IMG/VR virus record: IMGVR_UViG_3300035698_002337
Location: 1 to 21,011 of that record
Strand: one strand, 5' to 3'
DNA: 21,011 nucleotides
Source: a virus
Shown: in pieces, positions 5,604-17,576 of the stretch
How the letters are laid out: every line of letters begins with the position of its first letter
Position numbering within the stretch: the first letter of the stretch is position 1
Made by a program: the position numbers and the translations under genes
Notes under the pieces: generated by a model
Seen by the model: the letters and a program-made list of their open reading frames with translations, nothing else
Databases searched by the model: none
What the model was told of the DNA's origin: nothing

Positions 5604-6431
5604 ATGTTTAAATTAATTACTTTAGTATGTACATTATTTCTGTGGACAAACGTAATGTCTAAAACAATAACTTTAACTAGGAGGAATTCAGTAATACTAA
5701 CGGGTAAGATAGATTCTCAAAGTACCTCTAGGATAATGGGTAAGTTACTATTACTAGATCTTATAGATAGTGGAGATCCAATATACTTAGTGTTAAACTC
5801 TCCTGGTGGATCAATTAACTCAGGGCTAGAGCTTGTGGAGTTAACTAAAGGGATGAGAAGACCGGTACATACAATCGCAGTATTTGCAGCTAGTATGGCA
5901 TTTACATTACACCAGCTGCTTGGTATAAGATATGTGTTTAATTTCAGTACACTGATGGCTCATAAGGCTTTTGGTAGATTTGGTGGTGAATTCCCTGGTC
6001 AAATTGATAGTAGATATAATTTCTGGAAACATAAGCTACGTAAAATAGATAGAGTTATCGTAGCAAGACTTAAAAAGTACACAGTTAAACAATGGGAAAA
6101 AATGTATGAGAATGAATATTGGGTAAATGGATTCGATTCAATTAAGGGTGGTTTCTCAGACCAGAAGGTTTCTTTTCGATGTGATAAAGATTTAATGACA
6201 ATAAGAGTACAAAGTTTAACATTCTTTGGCCTCAAGTTTAAGGTTCAATGGTCGAACTGTCCACTAATAACAGCGCCATTAAGTGTTAAGATTGGTGGGA
6301 ATAGGAAAAGAGTTACAATAAAAGAAGCACGCGAGGTTATCCAAAAAGTAAAGTATATGTTTGATTTTAAAAGCTGGGACATAGACGAGATAAAGAGAAT
6401 AAACACGTTTGACTATGTTCCACAGAATTAG
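5604..6431 (+). CDS. ClpP-like serine protease with signal peptide, 275 aa
   Basis: A ClpP/crotonase-fold peptidase-like protein. Residues 1-19 look like a signal peptide (K3, then the hydrophobic run LITLVCTLFLW), so the product is probably exported or membrane-tethered. The core has the oxyanion strand NSPGGS (65-70), the nucleophile S97 in FAASMA, and the base H120 in LMAHKAF. The catalytic acid is unclear: the aligned position holds E171, with D178 nearby (EYWVNGFDSIK). About 85 residues after the core are an extension not found in ClpP. It heads an operon with a second ClpP-like protein, TerS and TerL. An exported ClpP-like enzyme could act in the envelope or be a non-proteolytic relative. 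Fold is secure, role unknown. Confidence 0.8.
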   Translation: MFKLITLVCTLFLWTNVMSKTITLTRRNSVILTGKIDSQSTSRIMGKLLLLDLIDSGDPIYLVLNSPGGSINSGLELVELTKGMRRPVHTIAVFAASMAFTLHQLLGIRYVFNFSTLMAHKAFGRFGGEFPGQIDSRYNFWKHKLRKIDRVIVARLKKYTVKQWEKMYENEYWVNGFDSIKGGFSDQKVSFRCDKDLMTIRVQSLTFFGLKFKVQWSNCPLITAPLSVKIGGNRKRVTIKEAREVIQKVKYMFDFKSWDIDEIKRINTFDYVPQN

Positions 6432-6440
6432 GGGTAAAAT

Positions 6441-7160
6441 ATGAAGGTTATTAATATAGGTGATTTACATCTTGATTACGCAATGAACAAGATGATTAGA
6501 AAGGCAATAAAGAGGGTTGAAGAAGAGCAACCAGATGTTGTTATACAAGGTGGTGACTTATATGACCAATACATGTATAGTCAATTTGATAATAATATGA
6601 ATTTCGTAACACCAAAAGATGAGCTACAAAGAGCACGTAAAACAGCAGTTAAATTTTGGAAGGATATACAAAAAGCTGCTCCAAATGCTAAATGTATACA
6701 ACTCATTGGTAATCACGATGTTAGGATACTTAGAAAATGTGCTAAAAAATATCCAGAAGCTTATCATATAATCGAAAAGGAATTTAAAGATTTATATAAG
6801 TTTAAGGGAGTTACTGTTAAATTAAGTGATCGTGACTATGTTAAATATGATGGTGTAGTTTATTGCCATGGATGGGCAGCTAAACATCTAGATCATTTTA
6901 AATCAAATGTAGTAAGACAACATGATCATAAAGCATGGATGTTTATAAGACCAAAAACTAATCTAGTAGATGGTGGTGGTATAACATTTAAATGTACTTA
7001 TACTATAGAACGATCAGATAATATAGAATTTGAAATATCATGTGGTACATTTTGTGACGAGAAAAAAGTACCTTTTGGTTATGTTAATTCTAGAAGAACC
7101 AATTGGCAACCAGCCATTTCCATAATTACTAAAGATTACGCTAGATTGGAGATATTGTAG
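6441..7160 (+). CDS. Metallophosphoesterase, Mre11/SbcD-like motifs, 239 aa
   Basis: A second calcineurin-like phosphoesterase. Motifs: G7-D8-x-H10 (IGDLHLD), G38-D39-x-Y-D (GGDLYD), G90-N-H-D93, H143 (CHGW), then H161-D-H163 (QHDHK) where the family usually has GHxH. The order and N-terminal GDLHLD start resemble DNA-repair nucleases of the Mre11/SbcD group, but the long capping domain is absent, so a small phosphodiesterase is the safer call. Ribosome site AGGGG lies at 6430-6434, nine bases after the exported ClpP-like gene. It is followed by the cytosolic ClpP-like gene with a one-base stop/start overlap (TAGTG). Confidence 0.85.
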   Translation: MKVINIGDLHLDYAMNKMIRKAIKRVEEEQPDVVIQGGDLYDQYMYSQFDNNMNFVTPKDELQRARKTAVKFWKDIQKAAPNAKCIQLIGNHDVRILRKCAKKYPEAYHIIEKEFKDLYKFKGVTVKLSDRDYVKYDGVVYCHGWAAKHLDHFKSNVVRQHDHKAWMFIRPKTNLVDGGGITFKCTYTIERSDNIEFEISCGTFCDEKKVPFGYVNSRRTNWQPAISIITKDYARLEIL

Positions 7161-7714
7161 TGTCAAAAAAGAAGTTCTTAGAGAATGATCAATATTGGGT
7201 AGAGACTGGTGTTGATCTTGAGAATAGAAAGATAATGTTAGATGAAGATATAGATGAATATAGCGTTGGGTGGGCTATACGTGGCATGGCTACAATGGAG
7301 AGGGCGTCTAATAAACCTATAGACATATATATAAATAGTTATGGTGGTTCTGTGTATGATGGATTAGCCTTGTATGATACAATACTAAAAAGTAAATGTA
7401 TAGTAAGAACACATGCAATGGGAAAAATTATGAGTATGGGGTTAATGATATATTTAGCAGGTGCAGAACGATATTCTATGCCATATGCTTCATTTATGAA
7501 TCATGGTATTTCTAGTGCAGCATGGGGAAAGTTATTCGAAATGAAAATAGAGGTAAGGGAATCAGAAAGATTAGAAGAGATATGTTTAGAGATTCTAGAT
7601 GAGAGAACGCTAAAAGGAAAAGCTTACTGGAAGAAACGATCAAAGTACGAAGATAGTTATTATGATAGGGATAAGGCTATAGATCTGGGGATAGTAATAA
7701 ATGAGTACGAATGA
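7160..7714 (+). CDS. ClpP-like serine protease, no signal peptide, 184 aa
   Basis: A typical-length ClpP-family peptidase. Strand IYINSYGGSV (57-65) supplies the oxyanion region, S92 (KIMSMG) is the nucleophile, H115 (FMNHG) the base, and D165 aligns with the catalytic Asp of ClpP, since the following DRDKAIDLG matches the end of the fold. The triad is thus complete. It starts with GTG (7160), spaced from GGAG (7148-7151) and overlapping the previous stop. Phage ClpP-like proteins often act as prohead proteases; here it sits upstream of the terminase genes, not beside the coat gene. It could process capsid or scaffold, or partner the exported paralogue. No ClpX-type ATPase lies in the window. 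Confidence 0.85.
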   Translation: MSKKKFLENDQYWVETGVDLENRKIMLDEDIDEYSVGWAIRGMATMERASNKPIDIYINSYGGSVYDGLALYDTILKSKCIVRTHAMGKIMSMGLMIYLAGAERYSMPYASFMNHGISSAAWGKLFEMKIEVRESERLEEICLEILDERTLKGKAYWKKRSKYEDSYYDRDKAIDLGIVINEYE

Positions 7715-8297
7715 TAAGAGTTTAACTACTGTAGTTTCATCTTCCTTACTAGAACAATTATGTGGTATACCAGATGAAATTGACCAACTTACAGAGGAAG
7801 AGTTAATCGCAGAAATAAATCCTAATAGGAATTTAAAGAGACTACGGTCCAGATTTAATTATGAGAGGAACTTAGCTCAATTTGAAGGACGTAAAATGAG
7901 TATTACAGTAGTATGTGATGGTGTTATACATCCACATTACTGGAGTAAATTAGCAGAGAATAAACATAAACTAGCTTATATAACTAGGCCATTAGCACAT
8001 ATACAAGAAGAATTACATGTATTACAGGCAGACTTTATGGAGGGTTTTAGAAGCCTATCTGAATTAGACCCAACCAACTTACCGACGAGTATAAAAGTAA
8101 GTGAGTGGATAAGTGCGGCTAAAATGGTTATAGACCGTACTGCACCAGTTGTACAGAAAGTACATAGTATAAATGAGAATCGTAATAACAAGGAGAATAG
8201 ACCAAAAGAACTAGAGGATATAAATGAAAAGATAAAACAATTAGAGGAAAAACTTGGAAAAGAAAAAGACGACGAAGGTCACAGTAGAAAAAAATAG
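7701..8297 (+). CDS. Putative terminase small subunit, 198 aa
   Basis: Called mainly from position: it lies immediately before the large terminase, as small subunits usually do, and has a suitable size. The small subunit binds the packaging site and hands DNA to the large subunit. The first 60 residues are helical and charged, a central part (about 66-120) is mixed, and residues about 165-198 form a Lys/Glu coiled coil (ELEDINEKIKQLEEKLG). A clear helix-turn-helix is not evident. It overlaps the ClpP-like gene by 14 bases and the large terminase by 44, indicating tight coupling. An unrelated accessory protein remains possible. Confidence 0.5.
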   Translation: MSTNDKSLTTVVSSSLLEQLCGIPDEIDQLTEEELIAEINPNRNLKRLRSRFNYERNLAQFEGRKMSITVVCDGVIHPHYWSKLAENKHKLAYITRPLAHIQEELHVLQADFMEGFRSLSELDPTNLPTSIKVSEWISAAKMVIDRTAPVVQKVHSINENRNNKENRPKELEDINEKIKQLEEKLGKEKDDEGHSRKK

Positions 8298-9825
8298 ACT
8301 TGATTACTTAGAACGGTTAGAAGACGAAGTAAAACTAAATGAAATGAAGCGTCAATTACCGCATCTATATCTACATAAATTATATACATGGCAAGAAGAG
8401 TTTATAAATGAGACAAATAGACAGTGCTGGATAACTGCAGCTAACCAATCTGGGGAATCATCAGCACAGATAATAAAGTGTGTAACTTTAGCTACAGAAC
8501 CTAAATTATGGGATAAATTCTTCCCATTAAGACAACCATCAACATTCTACTATTTCTATCCGACTAAAGGAGATTCATCTAAAGAGTTTAAGGAGAAATG
8601 GGTTAAAACATATTTACCTAAAGGCGAGATGAAAAATCACCCTCAGTATGGATGGAAAGAAGATATAAGACAAAAAGACATATATGCTATATATTTTAAT
8701 ACTGGAGTATCCATATATTTCATGTCATACGAAATGAAGGATTTACAAGCTGTTACTCTAGACGCTGCATTCTGTGATGAGGAGATACCACAACACCTCT
8801 ACCCTGAAATCAATGCTAGGTTATTCGCTACAGAAGGACTATTCTCATGCGTTTTTACTGCTACGAAGGGTCAAGACTGGGTTAAGCGAATAATTGAAGG
8901 CACAGGTGAAGACAGGGTCTTTCCTGATAGTTGGAGAAGACAAGTGTCTATGTATGATTGTCAATTATACTCAGATGGTACACCAACTAAATTTACCGAT
9001 GCTTATATAGAAAGAAGGAAAAGATCATTGCCTAACGAAACAGAGATACAGCGTAGAGTGTTTGGCAAATTTGTTATTTTAGGTGGTTTAGTATTTCCAG
9101 AATATAAAATGTCTAAGCATTTCGTTAAATCACATATAATCAATAAATCATGGTTAATATATGCAGGAATAGATATGGGAAGTGGTGGTGAGAATAATCA
9201 CCCTGCTGCCATTGGATTCGTTGCTGTTAATCCAGAACATACAAAGGCAAGGGTTTTTAAAACCTGGAGAGGTGATTTTATACCAACAACAGCTACTGAT
9301 ATACTAGATAAGTATCTAGAAATGAGTAAGGGTCTCAATGTAGTTAGAGCTGTTTACGATTATGCTGGTCAAGGTCAAGATTTTAAGGCTATAGCTGATT
9401 CACGAGGTATACCAGTAGTACCAGCAGATAAACGTAAAAGAGAAGAGGGCATTGATTTAATGAATGTCCTGTTTAAAAACAGCATGTTATATGTATATGA
9501 TGTATCCGATGGTAAGAAACTTAATGAAGAGTTTATAACATTAAAACATGAAACAGCTAAAACAAAGGCTAAAGATGATCTAATAGACGCTGTGAAGTAT
9601 ATAATGAGAGAAATACCATTCGACTACTCAATATTAAATCTACCTGAACCAGAAAGAGTCGATGAATATAAGAATTTAAATGAGAGAGAAAGAGCTGGTT
9701 TAAGAAATAAAGGCATAAATGTCGATGAATTTGATGAAGATGTTGACGGTGTAGTCGATGCTTATGACTCAGAAATAGCATCATTCAATGATTTTCATGA
9801 TAATGATGACGATTTTCCTTGGTAA
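8254..9825 (+). CDS. terL: Terminase large subunit, 523 aa
   Basis: The packaging motor: an N-terminal ATPase and a C-terminal RNase-H-like nuclease. The ATPase has a Walker A-like segment at 62-70 reading AANQSGESS, a Walker B FCDEE (173-177), and coupling motif TAT (202-204). The nuclease carries D307 (YAGIDMGSGG), D369 (AVYDYAG) and D442 (KDDLIDA). The usual Walker A lysine is replaced by E68 (GES instead of GKS), a one-base change from AAA. A TTG start at 8254 is chosen because GAGG (8244-8247) is well spaced; the next in-frame ATG is 30 codons later. It overlaps the upstream gene by 44 bases and ends the operon from the 5557 promoter. The acidic tail (DNDDDFPW) may bind the portal. Confidence 0.93.
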   Translation: MEKKKTTKVTVEKNRLDYLERLEDEVKLNEMKRQLPHLYLHKLYTWQEEFINETNRQCWITAANQSGESSAQIIKCVTLATEPKLWDKFFPLRQPSTFYYFYPTKGDSSKEFKEKWVKTYLPKGEMKNHPQYGWKEDIRQKDIYAIYFNTGVSIYFMSYEMKDLQAVTLDAAFCDEEIPQHLYPEINARLFATEGLFSCVFTATKGQDWVKRIIEGTGEDRVFPDSWRRQVSMYDCQLYSDGTPTKFTDAYIERRKRSLPNETEIQRRVFGKFVILGGLVFPEYKMSKHFVKSHIINKSWLIYAGIDMGSGGENNHPAAIGFVAVNPEHTKARVFKTWRGDFIPTTATDILDKYLEMSKGLNVVRAVYDYAGQGQDFKAIADSRGIPVVPADKRKREEGIDLMNVLFKNSMLYVYDVSDGKKLNEEFITLKHETAKTKAKDDLIDAVKYIMREIPFDYSILNLPEPERVDEYKNLNERERAGLRNKGINVDEFDEDVDGVVDAYDSEIASFNDFHDNDDDFPW

Positions 9826-9976: not shown

Positions 9977-10285
9977 ATGGAAAAAGTTAAAAAAATAAAA
10001 AAGTCTAAAGAAACTGTCGATATAATTAAAATAATAAAGGAATGTTCTAACTCAGATGTACGTTACATTAAAATAGGCGACATTGAGATAGAATTTAATG
10101 AACGTAAAGTTAAACCTGATGTAATTGCAGAATTACCAGAAGATCCTGAGTTTGACAAGGAAGCAAAAGAAGGTAAGAAGGATATGGATGAGTTTTATAG
10201 AACATTAGAGCAAGAGAATGAAATTGCCGATGATTTCGAGAAGCATGAAGCAGATGCCGTTATGAATGCTATGGAGGCCGAATAA
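9977..10285 (+). CDS. Small acidic protein upstream of portal, 102 aa
   Basis: A 102-residue protein with a Lys-rich first 20 residues and a strongly acidic remainder (EDPEFDKEAKEG and DFEKHEADAVMNAMEAE). It is probably largely helical. The ribosome site is modest (GGAG at about 9962-9965, somewhat far from the ATG). It is first in the capsid transcript and overlaps the portal gene by one base (TAATG). It may be a virion accessory or assembly factor. No family is recognised. Confidence 0.7.
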   Translation: MEKVKKIKKSKETVDIIKIIKECSNSDVRYIKIGDIEIEFNERKVKPDVIAELPEDPEFDKEAKEGKKDMDEFYRTLEQENEIADDFEKHEADAVMNAMEAE

Positions 10286-12363
10286 TGCCATCAGAACAAA
10301 CTGCAAATGATTTAGCGGTCAATTTTCAGCAAGCAGAAAAGGTAGATCAATCTACTGTACGTGGAATGAGACAGAATGTAAAATTAGTTAATGCCGACCA
10401 TTATGCTAGTAATAACAATAATAACTCAGTTAATGAACGTAAAAAAGTAAGTGTTAAAGGAAAACAACAACTTAGACTCACATTTAACTTTATACATCGT
10501 GTAAGAAATTTCTTTACAAATAGAATATTTAATTTAGCTCCTGGTGTTGTAGTAGGTCCTAGATCTGATAGTGAAATACAAGATCAAAAAGCTGCTGAAC
10601 AACATGGTTATATTTGGGATTATATTTGTAATATACATAATATAAGAGATAAACTAAGACATTGGATAGATGACTTTTTTGATTTAGGTGAAGTTGTTCT
10701 GAAGCTTGGTTGGAATCCGACATTAGGTAAACCTTATGCTGGACCAGTACAACAAGAAATGGAGCAGACTATAGATGAGTTTGGTAATATTACTGAAGTA
10801 CCATTAGGAGAACCATTCCAAGAAATGGTAGTTCCTGGTGATGTTGAATACGAACGTATATTTGCATTTGATCTATTTAGAGATCCTGCTGCAAAATCAA
10901 TGGATGAAGCAAGATACTTTATTATAAGAAAACTAGTGGATAAGAAGGAGTTAGCTAAACAATACCCTGATGCTGATGTTGAAAGAATGGCTGAAGATAA
11001 TTACGATGATACTTTTGTAGTTTTTAATGCTACTAATGGAGCTTATGAAAAGACTAAGAACGACCAAGTTTTAATTATGGAACATTTTTATAAGCCTTGC
11101 CTAGCATATCCTGATGGATATTACTATATTGCTACAAAACACGACATATTAGCCCAAGGCAAATTACCAGGCGGAAGATTTCCTATAATATGGAGAGGTT
11201 TTGATGAAGCCCAAACTAGTGCAAGAGCATTCAGTTTAATAAGACAAATTAAAAGTCCACAAGCTGAAATAAATAGATGCCTTTCTAAAATAGCAGAACA
11301 CCACATATCTTTAGGTGATGATACTGTATTTGTTCAAAGGGGTACTAAAGTTGCACCTGGAGGTTATATAAATGGGCAGAAAGTTGTCAAACATACTGGC
11401 CCACAGCCAATGGTGGTGGGGGGCCGTAGTGGCGAGCAGTACGCGGATCACTTACTTAGAATGGTCAACTGGATTGAAAGAATTGCTGGGATCGACCTAT
11501 TTGATGAAAAAGCAGGTGGCCAAGATGCTTGGGCACAAGTCCATAAAGGGTTAAAAGAAAAAGAGAAGTTCTCTAAATATGGTGAAAAAATTGAAAGTAT
11601 GTTAAAAGAAGTGTGTGAGATGTCTTTAGAACTTTACAAAGAAAATGCACCTGATGAGCTTCTTATACGTATATTTGGAAGAAAAGAAATACCTAATTTA
11701 GCTGAATTTAGAAGTATAGAGAATTTAGCATATCAAATTAAAGTAGATCCAGGTAATAAGGATGCCGATGAACAAATGAGAGAGCAACTAGTAGCCAATA
11801 CAATTTTACAATACTCTCCAGAAATGCCATCGGAACAAAGAGCATTATTAATTAGAAATATGCCACTTGGTGGGAACAATGAGGATTTCGAACAAGAATC
11901 ATTAGCCAAATACGATCAAGCTAAGAATTTAGCACTTGCTATAGAGAGAACTGGCGAACCATTACCGAAGGTTAATTACTATGTAGATAAGGATTATATT
12001 AAAGATTATTTAGTAACTAGGAGAACTAGGCCAGAAATGCAATTCCTACCACAAGAAATTATACAGAGATATGATACTCTAATACAAGAATTAGAGCAAT
12101 TAAAAGCAGAAGAAGTCCAGAAGACACAAGCAATGAATGCAGACTTTATTCCTACTGGTGGAGATGAGATTAAAGTAGATATTTATGAAGAAGTCCCTGC
12201 TTCAAATGGAGGTACTAAATCAGAACGAGCAACGATAAAGACAGAAACTTGGTACTGGATGAAAGATAGACTACGACAACAAGGTTCTTTACGTGGTGGT
12301 TTAGCTGCATCAAATGATGCAGATGTTAGTAATATTAGTGATTTGATGGATAACCAGGCGTAA
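10285..12363 (+). CDS. Portal protein, P22-like size, 692 aa
   Basis: A large protein directly after terL and before the scaffold and coat genes, the canonical portal position. Its length is close to P22-type portals. Visible features include a basic early helix region (VRNFFTNRIFNLAPG, near residue 72), a central stem and clip region with Gly/Pro loops (RFPIIWRGFDEAQT), and a Lys/Glu helix (GLKEKEKFSKYGEKIESML). The Gln/Glu-rich C-terminal helix (about 590-625) would suit the barrel region of P22-like portals. It forms the dodecameric ring for DNA entry and motor docking. Positions about 11401-11450 encode PQPMVVGGRSGEQYAD with unusually GC-rich codons. It overlaps the upstream gene by one base. 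Confidence 0.85.
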   Translation: MPSEQTANDLAVNFQQAEKVDQSTVRGMRQNVKLVNADHYASNNNNNSVNERKKVSVKGKQQLRLTFNFIHRVRNFFTNRIFNLAPGVVVGPRSDSEIQDQKAAEQHGYIWDYICNIHNIRDKLRHWIDDFFDLGEVVLKLGWNPTLGKPYAGPVQQEMEQTIDEFGNITEVPLGEPFQEMVVPGDVEYERIFAFDLFRDPAAKSMDEARYFIIRKLVDKKELAKQYPDADVERMAEDNYDDTFVVFNATNGAYEKTKNDQVLIMEHFYKPCLAYPDGYYYIATKHDILAQGKLPGGRFPIIWRGFDEAQTSARAFSLIRQIKSPQAEINRCLSKIAEHHISLGDDTVFVQRGTKVAPGGYINGQKVVKHTGPQPMVVGGRSGEQYADHLLRMVNWIERIAGIDLFDEKAGGQDAWAQVHKGLKEKEKFSKYGEKIESMLKEVCEMSLELYKENAPDELLIRIFGRKEIPNLAEFRSIENLAYQIKVDPGNKDADEQMREQLVANTILQYSPEMPSEQRALLIRNMPLGGNNEDFEQESLAKYDQAKNLALAIERTGEPLPKVNYYVDKDYIKDYLVTRRTRPEMQFLPQEIIQRYDTLIQELEQLKAEEVQKTQAMNADFIPTGGDEIKVDIYEEVPASNGGTKSERATIKTETWYWMKDRLRQQGSLRGGLAASNDADVSNISDLMDNQA

Positions 12364-13593: not shown

Positions 13594-14877
13594 ATGGCTA
13601 CAACAATAGTACAAACCTTTTCAACTTTAATGAAAGCTTATGAACCACACATGCTTATCAAGGCATCGCTTCCTAAGTTTAATTATCTTTGGAAAAACCT
13701 AAGAAAAGACAAAAGTTGGTTTGCAGGTCAGGTTTATTATGTACCTTTCGAATCAGGTGAAATTAGTAATGCAAGTCTCGGTGCTTTAACAGACGAAGAT
13801 GAGATTACTGAAGCACAGGTTCAAAAAGGATCAATTAGTACACAACCTGAAATGTATAACGCTATGGTATTTAACCATAAAGATTTAGATAGTGACAATG
13901 TAAAAGCTTCTTTTATGAAGTTATATCCAGCTAAAGTAAGACAATTTGCAAAATGGTGTTCTTCATTAGTATCACAACAGCTTTTAAATGGTCCTGCCAT
14001 TAGTAAAATGAAGGCAGTTGTAGACGGTGGAGTAGATCCAGTAGCAAATGACGGTGTTATTTATTTTGAGAATCCTGAGAGATTGAGGGTAGGACAAAAA
14101 ATAGCTATCCATGATACAGTTAAAGGTCTTATCGCAGCAGCTTATGTAAAAAACATAGTTGTATCTAGTGGTAGATGTATCGTTACTTCTAATGTTACAT
14201 TAGCCACAGTAGTAAATTTTACTGTTGGTGGTGTTCAGGTAACTGAAGCGAATAGTGGAGCTTGTTATATTCCTGGTGGAGATCCAGCTACAGCTAATAA
14301 TTTTACTAGTTTGAGTTCAATACTTCTTCCAAGTGGAACTGGTGATGGCTCAGCCAATCTATATGGCATAGCTAAGACAAGTTATCCATTTTTGCAATCA
14401 GTTGCAATTAATGGAGCAGCTATTGATGAAGATAACATTCTTGATGAATTAATGGATGCATTTTCTGATGTATCACAATTAGGTCAAGGTGATCCTTCAA
14501 TTATGTTAATGTCTATTAAGCACGCTAATTCAATTAGTAAGCTTATCAAAGAGAACTTTAGAGGTTCTTATTCAGCAAGTCCAATGAAAAAAGTTGGGTT
14601 TGGTCAGAAATCATTTATGATTAGTGGCCCAGAAGGTGATATCGAAGTAGTTTCAATTAGAGAAATGAATTCAGATCTTATCTATATACTTGATTGGTCT
14701 TCTTTACTATTTGCTGGTTCTAAGTTCTTCGAACCTATGGACTATGGAAATGGAAGAAATTTCTATATCAAGAGAGCAACAACTGGCGTTAAGTATATCA
14801 GTGATTTGAAATTTTACGGAGATTTGGTTTGTATTAACCCATCTCATAATGGTGTTGTTTACAGTATCAGTTATTAA
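13594..14877 (+). CDS. Major capsid protein, 427 aa
   Basis: A 427-residue protein following the scaffold with an excellent ribosome site AAGGAG (13581-13586). Size and gene order match P22-like coat proteins of HK97 fold. The N-terminal helical arm is followed by a likely E-loop segment (VPFESGEISNASLG, about 50-63). A Gly/Ser/Val-rich beta insertion spans about 165-250. The C-terminal A-domain contains PSIMLMSIKHANSISKL and ends with an Ile/Tyr strand. The segment LYGIAKTSYPFLQS is of a type I associate with phage coat proteins. It should be the most abundant structural protein. Gene order and composition make the call strong, though no motif is absolutely diagnostic. Confidence 0.85.
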   Translation: MATTIVQTFSTLMKAYEPHMLIKASLPKFNYLWKNLRKDKSWFAGQVYYVPFESGEISNASLGALTDEDEITEAQVQKGSISTQPEMYNAMVFNHKDLDSDNVKASFMKLYPAKVRQFAKWCSSLVSQQLLNGPAISKMKAVVDGGVDPVANDGVIYFENPERLRVGQKIAIHDTVKGLIAAAYVKNIVVSSGRCIVTSNVTLATVVNFTVGGVQVTEANSGACYIPGGDPATANNFTSLSSILLPSGTGDGSANLYGIAKTSYPFLQSVAINGAAIDEDNILDELMDAFSDVSQLGQGDPSIMLMSIKHANSISKLIKENFRGSYSASPMKKVGFGQKSFMISGPEGDIEVVSIREMNSDLIYILDWSSLLFAGSKFFEPMDYGNGRNFYIKRATTGVKYISDLKFYGDLVCINPSHNGVVYSISY

Positions 14878-14966: not shown

Positions 14967-16271
14967 ATGTCTTTGGCATTATCAGATAAATTAAAAGGTT
15001 TTTTAAATGGAATGAACTCAAGTGCTAAACAAGCAAAACTTGGTTTAATAATTCAGAGATTAATTGCTGGTATAGGTTCTGATCTAGCACCAGGAAAAAT
15101 ACTCGTTGGTAATTCTGTTGGTGTAAGCGCACCAGTAGATGTATCAGGAGCAGCTACTTTAAATAGTTCTGGAGTATTACAAATTGATGCGGTAGATCCA
15201 GACGAAATTGATTTAGATTTAACATTAAAACCGTGGACATTTGCAGGAGTAAAAACAGGCGGTAATGTCGAAGATTGGATTGGCCCAGATGGAAGGCTTC
15301 TTCAATGTCTTAATATAGGTGACAAAACATCTGCAGCTACTTGGGTTAGAGGAACAGGATTAGAGCCTACTATTAATAATACAGATAATAGAGGTTGTGA
15401 ACTTTCATTAAATGGTTATGCTTCTGGTGCTGATGGTTCCTTCGTAGCAGGTACTGATGACTTTTTTGTAGAAGCTAAAATTACAGTTGGAACAGTGCTA
15501 TCACTAGATGAAGTATATGTAGGCTTTAGAAAAGCAGAACCATTTGAAGCTGCCTTTGATGATTATGATGAAGCATGTGCAATAAATGTAGATAAGGGTG
15601 GAATTGGTCTAGAAACTATTTTAAATGGTGGAGGCACAGGAGACAAAGATACCACTCAAACAATAGGAGATGGTGAATACATCATCGCAAGAGTTGAGCA
15701 TAAAGCAAGCGTAGGACTATCAAGTGCTATAACTTTAGCAACAGAATTTAGATCAGATTTTAATGCTCATTTAATTTATGCAACACAGCACACCGCTTCT
15801 CTAGATGATGTAAATCAAATAACTTCTCCAGTACCTACAGATTTACCTAGTTTAATAGTTATGGTTACAGAAGCATTAACTGGCTTTGATGTACATGAAG
15901 ATGATTCAGAACTAGTAACACCTATTTATCATGATGCTCAAGAAACTGGAGATTGTTCTCTTGCATCAATTACAGCACCTACAGACTTACCAACATGTAT
16001 TGCAAGACTGAATGATCTTAAAGCTAAGTTTAAAGTTCATGATGATGACGCAACTAGTCACGCAACACAAACAGACTTTCCAATTGCAGCAGTAGCCGCA
16101 GGTTGTGTTACTTTTTATGTTGGAGATAACGCAGTATTAGCACCCCCTACAGCAACTACTAATTTTACTTTTGATGATACTGAAGAAGTAGTTCCTTTTA
16201 TCAGGATCTTAAAAGATGTTGGTGGAGCAGCAACAACTGCAATTTCAAGTTTTAAGTGTGGGAGGTTGTAA
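14967..16271 (+). CDS. Head-fibre/decoration-like protein A, 434 aa
   Basis: A putative virion surface protein, paralogous to the next gene along its whole length. An N-terminal helix (1-35) is followed by GKILVGNSVGVSAPVDVSG (43-61), a 'VGN..GV' beta motif common in phage fibre proteins. A beta-rich Gly domain follows (about 85-245), ending at DGEYIIARVEHKASVGLSSA. Residues about 255-370 form a helical region with three repeated units, each with paired His and mostly an Asp: H268/H275, H310/H322 and H358/H365. The end is SFKCGRL. It lies directly after the coat gene, so a capsid-associated fibre or decoration is likely, but a tail role cannot be excluded. Ribosome site is AAAGGA (around 14952). 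Confidence 0.7.
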   Translation: MSLALSDKLKGFLNGMNSSAKQAKLGLIIQRLIAGIGSDLAPGKILVGNSVGVSAPVDVSGAATLNSSGVLQIDAVDPDEIDLDLTLKPWTFAGVKTGGNVEDWIGPDGRLLQCLNIGDKTSAATWVRGTGLEPTINNTDNRGCELSLNGYASGADGSFVAGTDDFFVEAKITVGTVLSLDEVYVGFRKAEPFEAAFDDYDEACAINVDKGGIGLETILNGGGTGDKDTTQTIGDGEYIIARVEHKASVGLSSAITLATEFRSDFNAHLIYATQHTASLDDVNQITSPVPTDLPSLIVMVTEALTGFDVHEDDSELVTPIYHDAQETGDCSLASITAPTDLPTCIARLNDLKAKFKVHDDDATSHATQTDFPIAAVAAGCVTFYVGDNAVLAPPTATTNFTFDDTEEVVPFIRILKDVGGAATTAISSFKCGRL

Positions 16272-17576
16272 ATGGCATTAGCTTTATCAGATAGAGTAAG
16301 AAAATTTATAAATACTATGAATTCTGCAGCTAAACAATCAGTTCTTGGTAATTTGATTAATAATCTTATTGAAGGTACTGGCTCAGATTTAGCATCTGGG
16401 AAAATTCTTGTAGGTAGTTCTGATGGAGTAAGTGCCCCAGTAACAATGTCTGGTCACGGAATACTTAATGATGAAGGATCAATATACGTAGCTAAATTAG
16501 ATAAAAGAGAAATAGATCTTGATCTTACAGATAAACCAGTTCAATTTGCAGGAGTATTAACAGACACCAATATAGAGGATTACATTTGCGCAGAAAAAGT
16601 ATTATTACAAAGCACGGCTATAGGAACACATGATTCAGCTTCTACATGGCTAAGAGGCTCAGGTATTAAGCCTGATCTAGACGCAACAAATGATGAAGGT
16701 TGTGAAATAAATGCAGAGGTTTCTGGAACAAATATAAATTTTGTAGCAGGAGCAGACGACTTCTTTTTTGAAGCTAAATTTGAAAACACAGTAGTAGCTT
16801 CTTTAGATGAGTGTTATTTTGGTTTTAGAAAAGTTGAAGCTGTCAATGCAGTATTTGATAATTACAGTGACGCAATAGCAGTAAACGTAAAGGCTGGTGC
16901 TATAGGAATTGAATCTATTTTAGATAATGCAGCAACATCTGATACTGATACAACAGATACTATTACTGATGGTGAATACATCATAGCAAGAGTTGAACAT
17001 AAATCTAGTGTTGGACTTTCTAGTGCAATAACATTAGCGACAGCTTTAAAAGCTACAATTAATGCTCATTATGCTGATCAAGGTTCAGGTGGAGAAGAAC
17101 ATATTGCTGCTGATACAGCAATGGCTGTAGATACTCCAACAAATTTAGCAACTTTACTTTTGTCGATAAACGAAATACAAGATTCATATGTCGCACATAA
17201 TGTTGATGCTAATCTTGGTGCTGCATGGGTTTATCATCAAGCTGATGGAGATGATGATGCACTAGCTAGTGCAACAAATCCAACAGATTTACCAGAAGCT
17301 ATAGCAGTATTAGCTGATCTAAAAGCAAAATTAAATTTACACATGGCTGATAATGTATCTCACAGTGCTGGTAACTCTCCACAAGAGGCTGTAGTTGATG
17401 CAAGCTCAGTTACAATTACTACAGGTGTAAATGCAGCATTAGCAGCTCCCTCCGCAACAGCTCAATTTGTTTTTGATGATGGAGAAATAGTAATGCCTTT
17501 TGTAAGATTATTACAAACAGCAGTTACTCCAGGACAAGTAAATTACTTACACAGCTTTAAGTGTGGTAAATTATAA
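16272..17576 (+). CDS. Head-fibre/decoration-like protein B, paralogue of A, 434 aa
   Basis: Starts at the base after the stop of gene A; its ribosome site GGGAGG is built from A's last codons. It has exactly the same length and domain order: N-terminal helix, GKILVGSSDGVSAPVTMSG (43-61), beta domain, DGEYIIARVEHKSSVGLSSA, then the three-unit His/Asp repeat (H266/H277, H309/H322, H357/H364) and C-terminal SFKCGKL. The block encoding GEYIIAR is nearly identical in both genes at DNA level (15669 and 16968 onward), which supports an old tandem duplication with divergence elsewhere. The two may form a hetero-oligomeric fibre or give alternative receptor contacts. It overlaps the next gene by one base. 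Confidence 0.7.
   Translation: MALALSDRVRKFINTMNSAAKQSVLGNLINNLIEGTGSDLASGKILVGSSDGVSAPVTMSGHGILNDEGSIYVAKLDKREIDLDLTDKPVQFAGVLTDTNIEDYICAEKVLLQSTAIGTHDSASTWLRGSGIKPDLDATNDEGCEINAEVSGTNINFVAGADDFFFEAKFENTVVASLDECYFGFRKVEAVNAVFDNYSDAIAVNVKAGAIGIESILDNAATSDTDTTDTITDGEYIIARVEHKSSVGLSSAITLATALKATINAHYADQGSGGEEHIAADTAMAVDTPTNLATLLLSINEIQDSYVAHNVDANLGAAWVYHQADGDDDALASATNPTDLPEAIAVLADLKAKLNLHMADNVSHSAGNSPQEAVVDASSVTITTGVNAALAAPSATAQFVFDDGEIVMPFVRLLQTAVTPGQVNYLHSFKCGKL

Follow-up and report, generated by a model that had tools for sequence, protein, structure and literature searches.

A packaging gene cluster in an uncultivated tailed phage

The DNA analysed here, which we call the window, is one whole IMG/VR virus record of 21,011 bp and is a fragment of a genome. 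At positions 8254–9825 of the plus strand, it contains a gene for a large terminase (TerL). The gene begins with a TTG codon, preceded by an AGAGG-like ribosome-binding site. As first annotated, the frame is open; it runs unbroken for 523 codons. The gene directly upstream (7701–8297, plus strand) is a small terminase candidate by position only. Its product has no family match and is 66% identical to the equivalent protein of a related virus record, IMGVR_UViG_3300033388_002455 (47.8 kb, hereafter L001). Further plus strand genes encode a P22-like portal protein (10285–12363) and a candidate major capsid protein (13594–14877). The former matches PF16510 (43 bits) and phrog_156 and is 79% identical to its L001 equivalent. 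The latter, with a weak sub-threshold match to SU10_MCP, is 84% identical. For TerL the value is 71%. Both records have the gene order ClpP-like protease, TerL, portal and capsid protein. From TerL through to the capsid protein, no conserved gene is interrupted and synteny with L001 is maintained.

Two ClpP-like proteases are encoded close together in the window (5604–6431 and 7160–7714). The first has a signal-peptide-like hydrophobic N-terminal stretch, likewise present in the L001 homologue. Two adjacent 434-residue proteins (14967–16271 and 16272–17576) have similar N-termini and sequences, and apparently result from tandem duplication. In L001, where there is a single copy, one and the same stretch is matched by both.

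We assigned TerL using profiles and structure. The protein matches phrog_2 (E = 4e-18) and, marginally above the cut-off of 22 bits, Pfam Terminase_6N (22.8 bits). An AlphaFold2 (AF2) model, built from an alignment of 68 sequences, has a mean pLDDT of 90.2. The model comprises an ATPase and an RNase H-like nuclease fold, and resembles the terminases of D6E, P74-26, P22, Sf6, HK97 and T4. The best structural match is the large terminase of D6E (PDB 5oe8, 5oea; Z = 21.8 over 368 residues), with the two domains set differently (rmsd 15 Å over both). Individually, the ATPase domain aligns with that of P74-26 (Z = 20.5, 2.8 Å, 214 residues) and the nuclease domain with that of P22 (Z = 19.1, 2.8 Å). 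The nuclease domain also resembles the G20c and Sf6 structures. HK97 TerL (PDB 6z6d) shares the fold with Z = 16.8.

Most catalytic motifs are present. Walker B and the catalytic glutamate form the sequence FCDEE (residues 173–177, 8770–8784), in which D175, E176 and E177 are invariant among relatives. In the coupling motif T202-A203-T204 (8857–8865), T202 and T204 are likewise invariant. In the nuclease core D307, D369, D442 and D445 (9172–9591) are invariant. Hence, the initial annotation was correct in describing Walker B, the TAT motif and the nuclease aspartates as intact. Arg189 (8818–8820) is also invariant. In a weak local alignment to 5oe8, E176 and R189 fall on the D6E catalytic Glu143 and trans-arginine finger R158, respectively (PMC5727402). 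Some homologues have intein-like inserts. In L178 and L179 these occur at Walker B (IFC...N-CDEE), in frames of 796 and 696 residues; in L007:1082-3451 the insert lies in the nuclease motif (KDDA-CFVAGT...) of a 789-residue frame. We conclude that the window encodes an ordinary TerL, a packaging ATPase and nuclease, from an uncultivated tailed phage. This assignment rests on fold, homology and all motifs but Walker A, where the P-loop lysine is missing. The doubt concerns activity of the protein as recorded.

Glutamate occupies the Walker A lysine position

The Walker A loop reads AANQSGESS (residues 62–70, 8437–8463, plus strand), exactly as initially described. In the AF2 model, it lies between a strand (residues 57–62) and a helix (68–81). 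The codons are A62 GCA (8437), A63 GCT (8440), N64 AAC (8443), Q65 CAA (8446), S66 TCT (8449), G67 GGG (8452), E68 GAA (8455), S69 TCA (8458) and S70 TCA (8461). Relatives align here with AANQ[IVTL][GS]KS[ST]. Thus, Glu68 (8455–8457) stands at the position of the Walker A lysine.

To place this substitution, 80 distinct relatives were gathered by scanning IMG/VR and bacterial genome contigs. The patterns of the main viral scan left out residue 68, so the set was not selected for lysine; the pattern for bacterial genomes permitted either lysine or glutamate. Lysine is found in all 79 relatives covering the loop and, after two further scans and a wider count by motif, in 83 of 83 distinct P-loop regions, the window being the sole exception. 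We aligned the closest TerL homologues, as the initial annotation suggested. The window alone has glutamate and no relative reads GES. The relatives share 29 invariant columns, and the window agrees with them at 28, deviating only at Lys68.

L001 belongs to a clade with loops of the form AANQ[I][GS]KS. L001 and the other members have the Walker A lysine, where the window has glutamate and, in place of isoleucine, Ser66. The common forms are ISK (n = 51) and IGK (n = 28). Serine replaces the glycine before the lysine in most members (ISKS). The D6E P-loop has Lys47 and Arg44, where the window has glutamate and glutamine. A P-loop arginine is reported for the T4, Sf6, P74-26, D6E, lambda and phi29 terminases (PMC5727402). 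The clade as a whole has none, and contains Asn and Gln at positions −4 and −3.

We also searched for other GES terminases. None was found among the 14 stretches returned by a codon-pattern scan of IMG/VR, a partial search using TCN serine codons only. Among 50,697 phage records, tblastn gave no match to the window TerL, and a clade member gave one weak match, to Achromobacter phage CF418P1. L001 is the sole close relative recovered for both TerL and the capsid protein, and the collections may omit the records nearest the window. With the nearest relative only 71% identical, a small cluster of strains with Glu68 could be hidden.

A second private change and the search for a substitute base

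Ser66 (TCT, 8449–8451, plus strand) is a second window-only residue, and was not recognised as such in the initial annotation. Relatives have isoleucine in 76 of 79 cases, and valine, threonine and leucine once each. The L001 codon is ATA, which differs from TCT at all three bases. Hence, Ser66 did not arise by a single-base event, and one wrong base cannot explain both Ser66 and Glu68. The proximity of these private changes, at a distance of only two residues, hints mildly at linkage. It is mainly for this reason that we keep a functional reading open, in which Ser66 and Glu68 co-evolved in a working motor and the charge at the phosphates is supplied from outside the loop, for example by Lys110, the conserved Lys115 or Arg189 in trans. 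Ser66 needs no partner, however. Among terminases sampled from bacterial genomes and read by eye, serine lies two residues before the lysine in 13 of 34 canonical P-loops (e.g. RSGKT, GSGKS and SSGKT). Since serine is common here, Ser66 looks like ordinary variation.

Both deviations lie within 9 bases, so a local assembly flaw over codons 66–68, a misjoin or read-end noise, might have made both residues wrong. We consider this improbable. The frame is kept, codons 63–65 and 69–76 are as expected and Ser66 is, by itself, a common residue in terminases.

Some terminases do shift their catalytic basic residue, which favours the idea of a motor that uses another one. In terminases of the lambda/Mu type, as in the window, the classical position is not occupied by lysine (lambda: PMC9410871), but they have a lysine at the motif start. 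HK97 TerL has the classical K60 and an additional K57, three residues earlier (PMC9410871); the window has neither, and contains Gln65 at the earlier site. From residue 57 to residue 74 the window TerL contains neither Lys nor Arg, and the lambda/Mu motif-start lysine is absent. A relocated lysine of the lambda, Mu or HK97 type was rejected accordingly. We classified 43 phrog_2 loci from bacterial genomes by eye, of which three were unreadable. In the remainder a P-loop lysine was present in 40 of 40 terminases, 34 in canonical form and six of the early lambda/Mu type (EKSRRIG, AKGRRFG).

Some positions are basic in the window but seldom in relatives, including Lys110 (basic in 4% of relatives) and Arg255 (1%). 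Lys110, located in the helix that follows the second strand of the AF2 model, is the only one of these that we would name as a candidate for a compensating residue. The near uniqueness of Lys110 fits a deviant motor. However, no relative shares the arrangement, with the caveat that a very small clade could be missed at 71% identity, and a glutamate side chain would be negatively charged next to the phosphates. Hence, the proposal that the motor uses another residue was not borne out: no basic residue occupies the alternative positions, GES is unshared and the loop does not vary within the clade. We regard a natural, working deviant motor as unlikely. More doubtful again is its most specific form, a viral packaging ATPase that works with Glu in place of the P-loop Lys, together with Ser66, by drawing charge from another residue in cis or from a neighbouring subunit.

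The gene is otherwise intact

We next considered the state of the gene and genome. Compared with L001, pN/pS is 0.27 for TerL and 0.25 for its ATPase part. The portal (0.22) and capsid protein (0.21) have values close to that for TerL. By this measure, TerL is under purifying selection. No integrase was found among ten further window proteins scanned with PHROGs. Prophage decay was therefore rejected as the main cause, with the genes intact and syntenic and pN/pS low. The initial annotation had proposed that the genome, perhaps a decaying prophage, carries a defective terminase. Within the window, decay finds no support; a single real inactivating mutation may still apply.

In that case, the recorded base would be correct and the sequenced genome a variant defective for packaging, the mutation having become fixed in a subpopulation that is short-lived, complemented or a dead end. 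Examples would be unpackaged intracellular DNA, or a genome rescued by wild-type siblings during mixed infection. A very recent inactivating mutation would look like this, a lone substitution with the rest of the gene intact. In HK97 TerL, K60A abolishes ATPase activity and packaging, and so kills function (PMC9410871). Similarly, changing the predicted catalytic residues of T4 gp17 leads to loss of stimulated ATPase activity and packaging (PMC3012670). Glutamate at residue 68 should be worse than alanine. The protein as recorded should fold and may keep nuclease activity, but should not power packaging. As the window is a fragment, the genome may encode another terminase outside it; L001 gave a single TerL match. 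Against a defective variant, one would not expect the majority consensus of a replicating phage to carry a lethal mutation in its motor. In addition, no frameshifts or other lost catalytic residues occur in the window and no integrase was among the proteins scanned. We view this explanation as tentative.

Private changes are not rare in these genes. At least one non-conservative private change at a conserved column is carried by 24 of 81 TerLs and 17 of 79 portals. Glu68 stands out from this background solely by hitting a catalytic residue. The window portal also has such a change, E27G (codon GGA, 10363–10365). All 78 relatives have E or D here, L001 has GAA, and the change is A to G immediately after G. 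Given the background, it proves nothing, and a contig-wide excess of errors was rejected.

A wrong consensus base is the most probable explanation

The window codon for residue 68 is GAA and that of L001 is AAA. As the initial annotation stated, one base separates them. The change sits at the GGG/AAA codon boundary, where GGGAAA becomes GGGGAA, and so repeats the preceding base. Copying of the preceding base is a usual form of short-read miscall, but this makes a weak argument. The pattern fits an ordinary transition as well as a common miscall, and we give it little weight.

We infer that Glu68 is most likely a wrong base in the consensus of a single metagenome contig, with a probability of roughly 0.55. 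This reading is supported by the constant lysine (79 of 79 relatives, 83 of 83 P-loop regions), the retention of 28 of 29 invariant columns, purifying selection and synteny. Further support comes from the one-base distance, the common background of private changes, the lack of a second GES record in the TCN-codon scan and the loss of ATPase activity and packaging in the HK97 and T4 mutants. Moreover, with many contigs scanned, a few such cases would be expected from consensus errors alone. Three observations run counter to a wrong base. Ser66, two residues away, is not explained by the same single error; other genes of the window give no sign of a high error rate; and a real A to G mutation would look identical. 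Thus, of the origins first put forward, base error stands as the most economical, although a real mutation predicts the same sequence.

The wrong base ranks first because it needs one base in one record. The dead variant, which comes second, needs a lethal majority allele. A working deviant, placed third, needs compensation unsupported by relatives, and the local assembly flaw follows. If the consensus is indeed wrong, the P-loop of the phage itself is probably normal, of the ANQSGKS type, and its DNA would be packaged by a standard pentameric TerL motor.

Implications

A real glutamate in a working motor would violate a rule that is nearly universal among P-loop NTPases. Such a phage would then offer a natural experiment on stabilisation of the ATP gamma phosphate by terminases. 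On present evidence, the finding is one of caution: in a metagenome contig, a single base can mimic the loss of a key residue, and the warning sign is a change absent from every relative. We conclude that the Glu68 TerL most likely reflects a one-base consensus error or a non-functional variant rather than a novel type of motor.
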